Assembly (NCBI RefSeq): GCF_001424195.1
Contig: NZ_LMOO01000006.1
Location: 160,871-224,870 of the forward strand
Direction of reading: 5' to 3'
Length of the DNA stretch: 64,000 nucleotides
From: Cellulomonas sp. Leaf334
GTDB lineage: Bacteria; Actinomycetota; Actinomycetes; Actinomycetales; Cellulomonadaceae
Positions 54,588-59,078 of the stretch are shown here, piece after piece (the first letter of the stretch is position 1; each line of letters starts with the position of its first letter). The translations under genes were made by a program, and so were the position numbers. Below the pieces are notes generated by a model. The model was not told where the DNA came from. It made no database searches and was given only the letters and a program-made list of their open reading frames with translations.

Positions 54588-55661
54588 ATGGACATCGACA
54601 TGCAGACGCTGCGGCTGCTCGAGCGCGAACGGGAGATCAGCCTCGACGTGCTGGTCTCCGCGATCGAGCAGGCGCTGTTGTCCGCCTACCACCGCACGCC
54701 GGGCGCGCAGACGCGGGCCCGGGTCGAGGTGGACCGCAAGACCGGGCACGTGACCGTGTGGGCGCGCGAGGCCGCACCGGTGGTGGAGCCCGACGACGAG
54801 GGCATCGCGCCGCCGCCCGGTCCCGACGGGCCCGAGTTCGACGACACCCCGGACGGGTTCGGCCGCATCGCGACCGCGACCGCCCGCCAGGTCATCGTGC
54901 AGCGCCTGCGGGACGCCGAGGACGACCAGGTGCTCGGCGCGTTCCGCGGCAAGGAGGGTGAGGTCCTCGGCGGAGTCATCCAGCAGGGGCGTGACCCGCG
55001 GACGGTGCTCATCGACGTCGGCGGCACCGAGGCGGTCCTGCCCGCGCACGAGCAGGTCCCGGGCGAGGAGTACGTGCACGGCGACCGGATCCGCGGCTAC
55101 GTCCTGGAGGTCGCCCGGGGTCAGCGCGGCCCGCAGGTCACCCTGTCGCGGACCCACCCGAACCTCGTGCGCAAGCTGTTCGAGCTCGAGGTCCCCGAGG
55201 TCGCCGACGGGACCGTGGAGATCACCGCGATGGCGCGTGAGGCCGGTCACCGCACCAAGATGTCCGTCCGCGCGACCGTGGCCGGCGTCAACGCCAAGGG
55301 CGCCTGCATCGGCCCGATGGGTGGCCGGGTGCGCGCCGTCATGGCCGAGCTGCACGGCGAGAAGATCGACATCGTCGACCACGCCGACGACCCGGCGGAG
55401 ATGATCGCCCACGCCCTCTCGCCCGCCCGGGTGCTCTCCGTGACGGTCGTCGACCCCGTGGCGCGTGCGGCCCGCGTGATCGTGCCGGACTACCAGCTGT
55501 CGCTCGCCATCGGCAAGGAGGGGCAGAACGCCCGCCTGGCCGCGAAGCTGACGGGGTGGCGCATCGACATCCGGTCCGACGCCGAGGTGCCGGGAGAGAG
55601 CCTGCCGCACGGCGCCGACGGCGCCGACGGTGCCCATGGTGCAGCGGACGGCAGTGAGTGA
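54588..55661 (+). CDS. nusA: Transcription termination/antitermination factor NusA
   Basis: Binds RNA polymerase and nascent RNA. The 357-residue protein has the N-terminal domain ([17 protein letters not shown]), an S1 domain at about 130-205 ([19 protein letters not shown]) and two KH domains ([20 protein letters not shown] near 240; [20 protein letters not shown] near 305), with a short tail. It lacks the additional acidic repeats of enterobacterial NusA, as is normal in actinobacteria. The ATG at 54588 lies one base after rimP. Confidence 0.96.
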
Positions 55662-55695
55662 CCTCACGTGTGACGCCGCCGGAGCCGCGGCGCGG

Positions 55696-55701
55696 TAGAC
55701 T
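55696..55701 (+). promoter_or_regulatory. Possible -10 element before ylxR-infB
   Basis: TAGACT at 55696-55701 in gcggtagacttgc fits the actinobacterial -10 pattern; a GTGACG-like -35 lies 20 bases upstream, which is long. It could be an internal promoter in the 125-base gap after nusA. Confidence 0.3.
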
Positions 55702-55786
55702 TGCTGCGGCTGGGCCGGATGTCCGGCTCCTCCCGTCGAGCCGGCGGATCCCACAGACAGCTCAACAGCAGCAACACGTCTCTGGC

Positions 55787-56062
55787 ATGGGTCCGCTCCG
55801 CACGTGCGTGGGGTGCCGAGCCACCGGCCCGAGGTCAGCCCTGCTGAGGGTGGTCGCTGTCACCGAGGGTTCAGTCGAACTCGTCGTGGACGTCGCTCGC
55901 CGGATGCCGGGCAGGGGGGCATGGCTGCACCCCGATCCTGGATGTCTCGAGAAGGCCGAACGCCGGCGTGCGTTCGGGCGCGCCCTGCGAGTTGCAGGGC
56001 AGCCCGGCACGGACGCGGTCCACCGCCACCTCGAGCAGCAGGAGCAGGACGTCGTCGGGTAG
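55787..56062 (+). CDS. ylxR: YlxR/RnpM-family RNA-binding protein
   Basis: 91-residue protein starting MGPLRTCVGCRATGPRSAL and containing GRGAWLHPDPGCLEKAERR, the signature of the YlxR family encoded between nusA and infB. Family members bind RNA and have been linked to regulation of RNase P and gene expression. The ATG at 55787 gives the conserved N-terminus; the upstream open frame is not conserved-looking. The gene ends 49 bases before the chain of mini-frames in the infB leader. Confidence 0.9.
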   Translation: MGPLRTCVGCRATGPRSALLRVVAVTEGSVELVVDVARRMPGRGAWLHPDPGCLEKAERRRAFGRALRVAGQPGTDAVHRHLEQQEQDVVG

Positions 56063-56111
56063 TTCCCGGCGGCGAGGCCGATCGTCGATACGGAAAGCGG
56101 GTTGGAAGCCG

Positions 56112-56168
56112 ATGGCTGCCCGATGAGCACGCACCGATGAGTACCCAGCGATGAGTACCCAGCACTAA
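56112..56168 (+). promoter_or_regulatory. Chain of four overlapping minimal ORFs in the infB leader
   Basis: Four tiny frames follow one another: 56112-56126 encodes MAAR, 56123-56140 MSTHR, 56137-56154 MSTQR and 56151-56168 MSTQH, each with its own stop. Each stop overlaps the next ATG as ATGA, so a ribosome could terminate and restart three times within 57 bases. The DNA basis is a 14-base tandem repeat (cgatgagtacccag at 56135 and 56149, with a diverged copy at 56121). The last frame ends 42 bases before the infB GTG. A role in sensing initiation or IF2 levels is inference. Confidence 0.6.
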
Positions 56169-56171
56169 CGA

Positions 56172-56197
56172 CGGTCCGACCCTGTCCGGGCGGACCG
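56172..56197 (+). other. Hairpin between the mini-ORF chain and the infB start
   Basis: cggtccg (56172-56178) and cggaccg (56191-56197) pair around a 12-base loop that can add ccc/ggg pairs. The stem ends four bases before the infB ribosome binding site (AGGAGAG, 56202-56208), so its folding could affect IF2 initiation. Confidence 0.5.
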
Positions 56198-56210
56198 AGA
56201 CAGGAGAGAT

Positions 56211-59078
56211 GTGGCCAAGGTCCGCGTCTACGAGCTCGCCAAAGAGCTCGGGGTCGACAGCAAGACCATCATGACCAAGCTGAACGAGTTCGGTGAGTTC
56301 GTTCGCTCGGCATCCTCGACCATCGAACCGCCGGTCGTCCGCAAGCTGCGGGACACCTACCCGGTCGGTGGCGGAGGTTCCGCCCCCGCAGCAGCACCCG
56401 CCCCGAAGGCACCGGCCCGCCCGGCGCCCGCCCCGGCCGCTGCCGCCCCCACAGCACCCGCCCCCGCGGCACCGGTCGAGGCTCCCCGCCCCGCGCCTGC
56501 CGCTGCGGCTCCCGCCCCGGCTGCCCCCGCAGCCCCGGCTGCCCCTGCTCCGGCACGTCCGGCTCCCGCGCGTCCGGCTCCGGCCCCCGCGCAGGCTCCC
56601 GCTGCCGCGGCCCCGGCCAGCCCGGGCGTGCGTCCCGGCCCGCGCCAGGCCCCGCCTGCCGCCCGTCCGGGCAACAACCCCTTTGCTCCGTCCCAGGGCA
56701 TGCCCCGCCAGGGCGAGCGTCCCGGTGGCGGCGGTCCCCGCCCGCCGCGTCCGGGCAACAACCCGTTCGCGCCCTCGCAGGGCATGCCGCGTCCGGGTGA
56801 CCGTGACCGTCGTCCTGCCGCTGCCGAGGGTGCTCCGGCGGCCTCGGCCGGCGAGCGTCCGGGCGGTCCCCGTCCCGGCGGTCCTCGTCCGGGCGGTCCC
56901 CGCCCCAACCCCGGCATGATGCCGGGCAAGACCTCCAGCGGCGTCGGTCGTCCGGGCGAGCGCCCGGCCGGTCCCGGTGGCCGTGGCGGTCCCGGTGGTG
57001 CCGGTGGCGGTGCGCGCGGCGGTTACGCCGGGCGTCCCGGCGGCGGTGGCGGTGCGCCCGGTGGCGCTCCCGGTGGCGGTGGCGGTTTCGCCGGTCGTCC
57101 CGGTGGTGGCGGCGGTCGTCCCGGTGGTGCCGGTCGCGGCAGCACGCAGGGTGCGTTCGGTCGCGCGGGCGGTCGTCCCGTCCGTGGCCGCAAGTCGAAG
57201 CGTGCGAAGCGTCAAGAGTTCGAGCAGATGCAGGCCCCCTCGCTGGGTGGCGTGCAGGTCCCTCGCGGCAACGGCAAGACCGTCGTCCGCCTGCGCCACG
57301 GCTCGTCGCTGAACGACTTCGCCGACAAGATCGACGCCAACCCGGCCGCGCTGGTCACCGTGCTGTTCCACCTCGGTGAGATGGCCACGGCGACCCAGTC
57401 GCTGGACGAGGACACGTTCGGCACGCTCGCCGAGGAGCTCGGCTACCAGATCGAGATGGTCTCGGCCGAGGAGGAGGACCGCGAGCTGCTCGGGGCCTTC
57501 GACATCGACCTGGACGCCGAGCTCGAGGCCGAGGGCGACGACGACCTGACGGCGCGGCCCCCGGTCGTCACCGTCATGGGTCACGTCGACCACGGAAAGA
57601 CCAAGCTCCTCGACGCCATCCGTCAGACGGACGTCGTCGCGGGCGAGGCCGGCGGGATCACGCAGCACATCGGTGCCTACCAGGTGCACACCACGCACGA
57701 GGGCACCGACCGTGCCGTCACGTTCATCGACACCCCGGGCCACGAGGCGTTCACCGCCATGCGTGCCCGTGGTGCGCAGGTGACCGACATCGCGATCCTC
57801 GTGGTCGCGGCGGACGACGGCGTGATGCCCCAGACCATCGAGGCGCTCAACCACGCCCAGGCGGCCGGTGTGCCGATCGTGGTCGCGGTCAACAAGGTGG
57901 ACAAGGAGGGGGCCAACCCCGCCAAGGTCCGCCAGCAGCTCACCGAGTACAACCTGGTGGCCGAGGAGTACGGCGGCGACACGATGTTCGTCGACGTCTC
58001 CGCGAAGTCGCTCACGGGCATCGACCAGCTGCTCGAGGCGGTCCTCCTCACGGCGGACGCAGCCCTCGACCTGCGGGCGAACGCCGACAAGGACGCGCGA
58101 GGCGTCGCCATCGAGGCGAACCTCGACAAGGGGCGCGGTGCCGTGGCAACCGTCCTGGTCCAGTCGGGCACGCTCGAGGTCGGCGACTCGATCGTCGCCG
58201 GCACGGCCTACGGCCGCGTCCGTGCGATGTTCGACGAGCATGGCGAGCCGGTCACGGTGGCCGGTCCGTCGCGTCCGGTCCAGGTCCTCGGTCTGACCTC
58301 GGTGCCCCGCGCCGGCGACACGTTCATCGTGGCTCCGGACGACCGCACCGCGCGTCAGATCGGCGAGAAGCGCGAGGCGGCCGAGCGTGCCGCACTCCTG
58401 GCGAAGCGTCGCAAGCGCATCAGCCTCGAGGACTTCACGCAGGCGCTCCAGCAGGGCAAGGTCGAGACCCTCAACCTGGTCCTCAAGGGCGACGTGTCGG
58501 GTGCCGTCGAGGCGCTCGAGGACGCGCTGCTCAAGATCGACGTGGGCGAGGAGGTCGAGCTGCGGGTCATCCACCGTGGGGTGGGTGCCATCACGCAGAA
58601 CGACGTCAACCTGGCGACGGTCGACTCGGCGATCATCATCGGCTTCAACGTCAAGTACGCGGAGCGCGTCGAGGAGCTGGCTGACCGCGAGGGCGTCGAC
58701 GTGCGCTTCTACTCGGTCATCTACCAGGCGATCGACGACGTCGAGGCGGCCCTCAAGGGCATGCTCAAGCCGGAGTACGAGGAGGTGCAGCTCGGTTCCG
58801 CCGAGGTGCGCGAGGTCTTCCGCTCGTCGAAGTTCGGCAACATCGCCGGGTCGATCGTGCGGTCGGGTCTCATCCGACGGAACACGAAGGCGCGCGTCTC
58901 GCGTGGCGGCAAGATCATCGGCGACAACCTGACGATCGAGTCGCTCAAGCGGTTCAAGGACGACGCCACCGAGGTCCGCGAGGGCTTCGAGTGCGGCATC
59001 GGCCTCGGCTCGTTCAACGACGTCGAGACCGGCGACACCATCGAGACCTGGGAGATGCGCGAGAAGCCTCGCGCCTGA
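56211..59078 (+). CDS. infB: Translation initiation factor IF-2
   Basis: GTPase that places initiator tRNA on the 30S subunit. The 955-residue protein has an N-terminal IF2_N domain ([18 protein letters not shown]), then about 300 residues of Ala/Pro- and later Gly/Arg-rich sequence with [12 protein letters not shown] present twice, a second IF2_N-like segment near 365 and the G domain with GHVDHGKT at 457-464, DTPGHEAF near 510 and NKVDKEGA near 562. Domains II-IV follow. The long disordered region is typical of actinobacterial IF2. The GTG at 56211 follows AGGAGAG. Confidence 0.97.

Follow-up and report, generated by a model that had tools for sequence, protein, structure and literature searches.

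Coupling of translation across overlapping stop and start codons has been described in systems close to the one reported here. Of 14 overlapping gene pairs studied in Haloferax and E. coli, 13 proved to be strictly coupled (PMC6728339), and reporter evidence for termination-reinitiation at an AUGA overlap has been presented for an upstream open reading frame (uORF) of Mycobacterium tuberculosis (PMC11260477). In E. coli, depletion of RRF reportedly did not affect coupling significantly, and the authors of that work dispute reinitiation as a major coupling mechanism (PMC7538156). As for infB, its control in E. coli in the cold is reported to involve several promoters, mRNA half-life and a translational bias (PMC6511841), and a terminator motif before rimP has been described for the rimP-nusA-infB operon of many bacteria (PMC2965389). 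The regulation of IF2 outside E. coli is hardly treated in the literature found. Within the open-licence literature searched, no description of mini-ORFs before infB in actinobacteria was encountered, and the main text of a ribosome profiling study of M. tuberculosis (PMC9094748) contains no mention of Rv2839, a uORF or ATGA.

The infB leader examined in this study lies in a 64,000-nucleotide stretch of the genome of Cellulomonas sp. Leaf334, referred to below as the window (Table 1). The surrounding genes are rimP (PF02576), nusA (PF08529, PF13184), ylxR (PF04296), infB (IF-2, IF2_N) and rbfA (PF02033), and the nearest named infB among the best 80 of 512 relatives is that of Cellulomonas sp. 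Root485 (98% over 50 residues). Positions 56112-56168 read ATGGCTGCCCGATGAGCACGCACCGATGAGTACCCAGCGATGAGTACCCAGCACTAA and contain four mini-ORFs joined by three ATGA stop/start overlaps, so that direct reading confirmed exactly the chain described by an earlier, sequence-only reading of this DNA. The TAA of the last mini-ORF is 42 nt from the GTG of infB. A scan with ATG or GTG starts and ORFs of 2-9 codons returned this as the sole chain of at least three such mini-ORFs on either strand of the window. The whole genome holds 15 ATGA triples (gaps 7-13), among which the triple of the infB leader alone has both spacings in coding phase. In Tandem Repeats Finder this stretch appears as a 14-mer present in 3.1 copies and, within a single genome, a repeat and a relay can therefore be told apart only by comparison.

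Table 1. Features of the ylxR-infB region, in positions of the window.
Feature	Position	Strand	Detail
ylxR, upstream gene	55787..56062	+	Pfam PF04296 YlxR E=1.4e-22; stop codon 56060-56062
infB leader, 148 nt, from ylxR stop to infB start	56063..56210	+	
Purine-rich element GAAAGCGGGTTGGAAG 5' of ORF1, putative weak ribosome-binding site	56093..56108	+	Motif ARRYRGG in relatives
Mini-ORF 1, MAAR	56112..56126	+	ATG GCT GCC CGA TGA
Mini-ORF 2, MSTHR	56123..56140	+	ATG AGC ACG CAC CGA TGA; ATGA overlap with ORF1 stop
Mini-ORF 3, MSTQR	56137..56154	+	ATG AGT ACC CAG CGA TGA; ATGA overlap with ORF2 stop
Mini-ORF 4, MSTQH	56151..56168	+	ATG AGT ACC CAG CAC TAA; ATGA overlap with ORF3 stop
Hairpin P1, 5' arm GGTCCG	56173..56178	+	Covarying helix in 47 aligned leaders; the window's minimum-energy fold differs
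Hairpin P1, 3' arm CGGACC	56191..56196	+	Covarying helix in 47 aligned leaders; the window's minimum-energy fold differs
infB Shine-Dalgarno AGGAG	56202..56206	+	Read from sequence
infB, IF2, GTG start	56211..59078	+	Pfam IF-2 E=6.9e-38, IF2_N E=3.9e-25

The leaders used for comparison were collected through the IF2 N-terminus and not through the repeat, with ten exceptions. Matches to infB were obtained for 229 of 234 loci, and 208 leaders were left once those shorter than 140 nt, containing N or identical had been dropped. Removal of the ten leaders fetched with the repeat pattern itself gave the 198 on which the chain frequency and the ATGA spacing counts rest; the ten are still included in the shuffle, junction, ribosome-masking and ORF2 substitution counts. 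Cluster representatives were taken from clusters at 0.70 identity, which are not a phylogeny. Three or more overlapping mini-ORFs (2-9 codons) were chained in 190 of the 198 distinct 140-nt class leaders. Eight leaders lacked a chain of three at the 9-codon limit and six at 15 codons, which indicates that the chain can be lost. Dinucleotide shuffles of the 208 leaders gave an expectation of 1.26 chains of at least three, a chain of three was still found in 173 of the 208 when ATG starts alone were allowed, and the same strand of 427 kb of flanking DNA contained no chain of at least three. The leaders L069, L377 and L210, without a chain of three, comprise two that are alike (one from a MAG) and one from a 0.9-Mb genome, and they represent useful natural knock-outs.

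Judged from counts of leaders, the chain appears to be shared across most of the families sampled. Named loci, namely the best 80 of 512 relatives and thus a set rich in Streptomyces, carried it in 77 cases, including the genera Cellulomonas, Sanguibacter, Flavimobilis, Promicromonospora, Streptomyces, Kitasatospora, Nocardiopsis, Actinoallomurus, Kribbella, Actinopolymorpha and Ornithinimicrobium. The three exceptions are one MAG and two Arthrobacter loci, and in Arthrobacter the chain is placed further upstream. In 30 genomes of families unlisted in the class draw, it was found in 26 of the 29 usable leaders (L450 was excluded, its match ending short of the infB start), and by eye the remaining three (L440, L459 and L460) contain apparent chains with longer ORFs. 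Repeats of the ATGAGTAC type, which the sequence-only reading had remembered from upstream of infB in other actinobacteria, are real and occur in the leaders of relatives. Outside the class, 50 infB loci from other classes of the phylum, chosen from the matches listed and with starts set by protein match (approximate for some), yielded chains of two in two cases and none of three. In this sample, the chain is an element of one bacterial class, which includes Cellulomonas, Streptomyces and Arthrobacter. An infB leader and an IF2 of actinobacterial appearance were also found in a MAG labelled Spirochaetaceae bacterium (L339), whose IF2 shows 83% identity and whose mini-ORFs encode MSAR, MSLHR and MSASMK; this contig is probably misbinned.

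A search of 118 class genomes with the ATGA spacing pattern 11+14 identified 72 places in 67 genomes, 55 of them beside infB and eight elsewhere, with infB positions compared by eye; the remaining nine came without an infB position for comparison, and their sequences look alike. The reversed pattern occurred at two places in the same genomes. This pattern misses leaders with another unit length or junction, such as the window's own, where the first ORF is not followed by A and the spacing is then 14+14. Out-of-phase ATGA triples were common in every genome scanned, phase having been examined in the window's genome only. The eight in-phase 11+14 triples away from infB (for example, G518:C1:1403955, G459:C34:20771 and G277:C1:6941776) may be chance occurrences or relays at other genes.

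Comparison of the leaders revealed what is kept and what varies. Among 79 cluster representatives, the spacing between successive ATGA motifs, counted blind to frame, was 2 mod 3 in 111 of 114 intervals (binomial p about 8e-49 at 1/3, for clusters that are not fully independent), as a stop/start overlap requires. The same held for 287 of 292 intervals over all leaders, the exceptions being 12, 15 and 22, and the in-phase spacings were mostly 11 or 14 nt, more rarely 8, 17 or 20. At the 152 junctions between the last three ORFs of 76 representatives, ATGA was found 128 times, GTGA ten times, TAATG eight times and TGATG six times; the start or stop codon may thus switch while the overlap persists. 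Family f7 has GTGA at its first junction (for example, MSTP, followed by GTG AAG CAC CAG CGA TGA and ATG), and family f5 often has TAATG there (MDN, MSGSK and then a third ORF). Many genomes of family f7 also possess a second open frame, which is longer and includes a stretch resembling IF2_N (e.g., G836:C1:1279217); it may encode a protein of RNase E/G type. The first ORF of relatives encodes MGTR, MSTR, MSAR, METR and others, and the commonest triple of ORF lengths is 4, 5 and 6 codons (30 of 76 representatives). In the later ORFs the second codon was AGC or AGT in 99 of 152 cases. The codon before the junction was CGA in 82 of 152 among the representatives, whereas infB, nusA and a further gene of the window that we take to be proS together have CGA at 3 of their 32 NNA sense codons. 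In 190 leaders the last stop lay 31-84 nt from infB (median 43 nt; quartiles 41 and 48).

The encoded peptides behave differently from this arrangement. ORF2 exists in 64 distinct sequences among 155, and 53 pairs that differ by a single base comprise 10 synonymous and 43 non-synonymous differences, close to the ratio of 390 to 1423 for the changes that are possible. Start, stop, overlap and length class are kept, whereas conservation of the amino acids is not apparent in ORF2. The close similarity of the last three peptides to one another, pointed out in the sequence-only reading, is valid in the window's lineage and does not extend to the class. That reading had also named, as the case against itself, relatives that keep the repeat DNA and break the frames and overlaps; the opposite was found, as relatives differ in DNA sequence, in the length of the unit and in some cases in the start or stop codon itself, yet retain the overlaps. 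The same reading proposed that the leader may sense initiation-factor activity and autoregulate IF2, possibly with a part for YlxR, whose gene was confirmed as the neighbour (PF04296). The frames are almost certainly under selection, and by comparison the overlaps and frames, together with the earlier proposal that ribosomes read this leader, are well supported. The purine-rich element before ORF1 is a possible weak ribosome-binding site: an ARRYRGG motif precedes the third-last ORF by no more than 45 nt in 32 of 77 representatives, at 16-18 nt in 26 of these, against 0.08 per sequence in mononucleotide shuffles; it was not found in the remaining 45.

A different form of the leader was observed in family f2, represented by 30 leaders fetched of 40 matches plus two Arthrobacter loci (L410-L439, L397 and L403). 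The Arthrobacter loci were added as their usual place lacked a chain, and the shared leader suggests that Arthrobacter belongs to this family. Except for L416, all leaders of the family (31 of 32) end with a last ORF of 16-36 codons, as in METR, MSTQR, MSAQR and then the long ORF, which in nine of the 31 follows after a two-base gap and not an overlap. Its stop lies 34-51 nt 5' of infB, similar to the other families. The inserts are diverse in sequence, yet one open frame and a constant end point are retained, which is hard to explain without translation. The arrangement lies about 35-130 nt 5' of infB, and several of the long ORFs have LLCSA or LLRSA in common close to their beginning and finish in SKK, SKN or SRK. 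The long last ORF perhaps constitutes a second layer of control, and it does not agree with a pure model of short-peptide drop-off.

Between the last stop and the Shine-Dalgarno sequence lies the hairpin P1, which in 47 aligned leaders has 96.8% of its cells paired and both-sided changes at four of its six pairs (20 cells). Its paired cells, both-sided cells, pair types and covariation score were reached by none of 500 shuffles and by no slid version; its count of pairs with both-sided change was reached by 37 of the 500 shuffles and one slid version. Seven of 76 segments were omitted for length and 47 of the other 69 were aligned, the 22 remaining (eight of f5, six of f7, five of f97 and three others) having been left out by eye before alignment, so that the covariation is valid for the aligned part. 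In the window, P1 begins 4 nt past the last stop and could be reached by a ribosome located there. The minimum-energy fold of the window contains another hairpin, CCTGTCCGG with CCG-GACAGG, which touches the infB Shine-Dalgarno; in the window's folds its pairing of CCTGTC (56181-56186) with GACAGG (56199-56204) replaces P1. The fold of 56063-56240 is ordinary in energy (z=-0.77), and Rfam gave no match at gathering level for 55600-56400 of the window or for five relatives. An Rfam match to P10 in the window was discarded (14.8 bits, below its gathering score of 37, and on the opposite strand). Placing a ribosome at the last stop of 76 leaders changed the mean openness of the Shine-Dalgarno from 0.63 to 0.675, with a decrease of more than 0.3 in five leaders and an increase of more than 0.3 in ten. 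A Shine-Dalgarno switch formed by two exclusive hairpins was rejected as a conserved mechanism on this lack of a general effect, and it may be relevant in the window's lineage or in other single lineages. No structure hiding the Shine-Dalgarno is conserved among the 76 leaders, which, like the different hairpin of the window, weighs against the relay reading; its link to infB is putative.

Taken as a comparison of sequences, these results indicate that the chain is real, conserved in the sampled class and very probably translated. Translation by termination-reinitiation is highly likely, and control of infB by the relay is probable; that the signal is IF2 or the status of initiation is conceivable and somewhat doubtful. 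The whole reading, in which the leader acts as a translated stop-start relay that sets infB translation and most likely responds to initiation-factor activity, stands evenly balanced. A ribosome would start at the first mini-ORF, translate about four codons, terminate, restart on the overlapping start and repeat this once or more, and the relay would end at a stop shortly 5' of infB, before the conserved hairpin in most aligned cases. Selection, on this view, acts on the short first ORFs, the stop/start overlap and the end point, and not on the peptides. Since each hand-over would be probabilistic, the number of ribosomes that pass or fall out would be a steep function of reinitiation efficiency: with a restart probability r, throughput would follow r squared or cubed, and a small change of capacity could have a large effect at the end. 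A bacterial reinitiation counter of this kind, where the product of the probabilities in two to four serial restart tests sets IF2 synthesis, is offered tentatively as a minority possibility.

The most likely purpose of such a relay would be to make infB translation depend on the state of translation initiation and thereby to hold IF2 steady. IF2 is the factor that delivers the initiator tRNA, and IF1 and IF2 are said, by the title of Karimi et al. 1998, to remove short peptidyl-tRNAs jointly from the P site of E. coli ribosomes. An excess of IF2 (with IF1) could expel short peptidyl-tRNAs or keep ribosomes within the relay, and a shortage would have the reverse effect. If the ribosomes of the relay go on to infB, removal of peptidyl-tRNA by IF2 and IF1 would give negative feedback; if infB loses these ribosomes, bypass when IF2 is low would also give negative feedback, by the logic of GCN4. 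The effect of the relay on infB could go in either direction, and the analysis cannot decide between them. The third base of a CGA codon in the P site would be the A of the next AUG, and such a codon may release easily; the pairing of this A with the inosine of the arginine tRNA is weak, and the CGA bias would fit the relay for that reason. AG following AUG could offer extra pairing with the loop of the initiator tRNA. Against the relay model counts the view of reinitiation in E. coli expressed by PMC7538156.

Several other explanations have to be weighed against a relay that senses initiation factors. The relay could merely load ribosomes on infB or cover the gap between ylxR and infB, with no sensing of factors. 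This is unlikely, although the position of its last stop, with 43 nt as the median distance to infB, and the covarying hairpin in between, which could join the last stop and the infB start, agree with it, as does the dependence of ppe2 expression in M. tuberculosis on a uORF with an AUGA overlap (PMC11260477). However, one longer upstream ORF would suffice for this task, leaving three or four tiny ones, mostly at infB, unexplained, and infB owns a Shine-Dalgarno. Rather unlikely is a bypass of the GCN4 type, in which promptly reinitiating ribosomes would be trapped and lost in the mini-ORFs, and scarcity of IF2 or initiator tRNA would let post-termination subunits pass over the overlapping starts as far as infB. 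The position of serial uORFs before the gene of the factor for initiator-tRNA delivery recalls the logic described for GCN4 (PMC11550727); nevertheless, the 30S or 70S would have to scan across about 43 nt and a hairpin, and the gene's own ribosome-binding site argues against this route as well.

An attenuator in which peptides or codons of the leader stall the ribosome and switch RNA structures is improbable. Short leader ORFs with a hairpin 5' of the gene, the strong CGA bias before the junction (82/152) and the window's second hairpin at the Shine-Dalgarno would suit it, but ORF2 showed no conserved peptide or regulatory codon run, only the last codon being biased, and masking at the last stop did not generally hide the Shine-Dalgarno in the 76 leaders. 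Peptide sensing was likewise rejected, as the amino acids of ORF2, the one ORF examined for this, lack conservation. A neutral 14-base tandem repeat, or a direct-repeat site for binding of DNA or protein with incidental frames, has next to no probability despite the repeat score in the window, since family f5 retains overlaps without a DNA repeat, lengths change by threes, start and stop codons are swapped with the overlap intact, and the long-ORF frame of family f2 and the 2 mod 3 spacing contradict it; by this comparison the chain is judged not to be a chance repeat.

If the initiation-sensing relay is correct, it would represent an initiation-factor sensor built from start and stop codons alone, a class-wide bacterial counterpart of GCN4, and, should the counting model hold, a new kind of sensor. 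A leader of chained mini-ORFs would serve as a natural assay of termination, recycling and reinitiation, and the disputed extent of post-termination reinitiation in bacteria could be tested in a natural context that is under selection. The usual length limits of gene finders lie far above ORFs of 3-7 codons.

The infB relay is classed here as a so far undescribed variant of control by uORFs and termination-reinitiation. The drop-off minigenes of E. coli, for which Dincbas et al. 1999 is reportedly a source together with Karimi et al. 1998, are similar in consisting of very short ORFs. They are artificial or derived from phage, and no natural chained ones appeared in the open-licence literature searched. 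The three ORFs of the infB relay most commonly have 4, 5 and 6 codons, but the last ORF has 16-36 in 31 of 32 leaders of family f2. The attenuator of the rimP leader (PMC2965389) is also a regulatory leader of the same operon, but relies on a terminator motif at the other operon end. With the overlapping gene pairs joined by ATGA or TGATG (PMC6728339), the leader shares the stop/start overlap, present at 152 junctions in 76 representatives, and the presumed behaviour of the ribosome; the known cases found comprise two genes or a uORF and a gene, whereas the chain before infB has three or four members, mostly 3-7 codons long, and a hairpin and about 43 nt separate the last of them from the gene. 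In the uPPE2-PPE2 pair of M. tuberculosis (PMC11260477), the stop of the uORF overlaps the next start as AUGA in the same manner; however, this is a single uORF under a B12 riboswitch that overlaps the gene directly. The uORFs of GCN4 (PMC11550727) are several, very short and serial, with reinitiation as a possible signal and a link to initiator tRNA, and at least two of them before the main ORF compare with at least three in 190 of 198 infB leaders. In contrast to the separate uORFs of GCN4, read by a scanning eukaryotic ribosome, the starts of the infB relay overlap and its downstream gene is itself an initiation factor.
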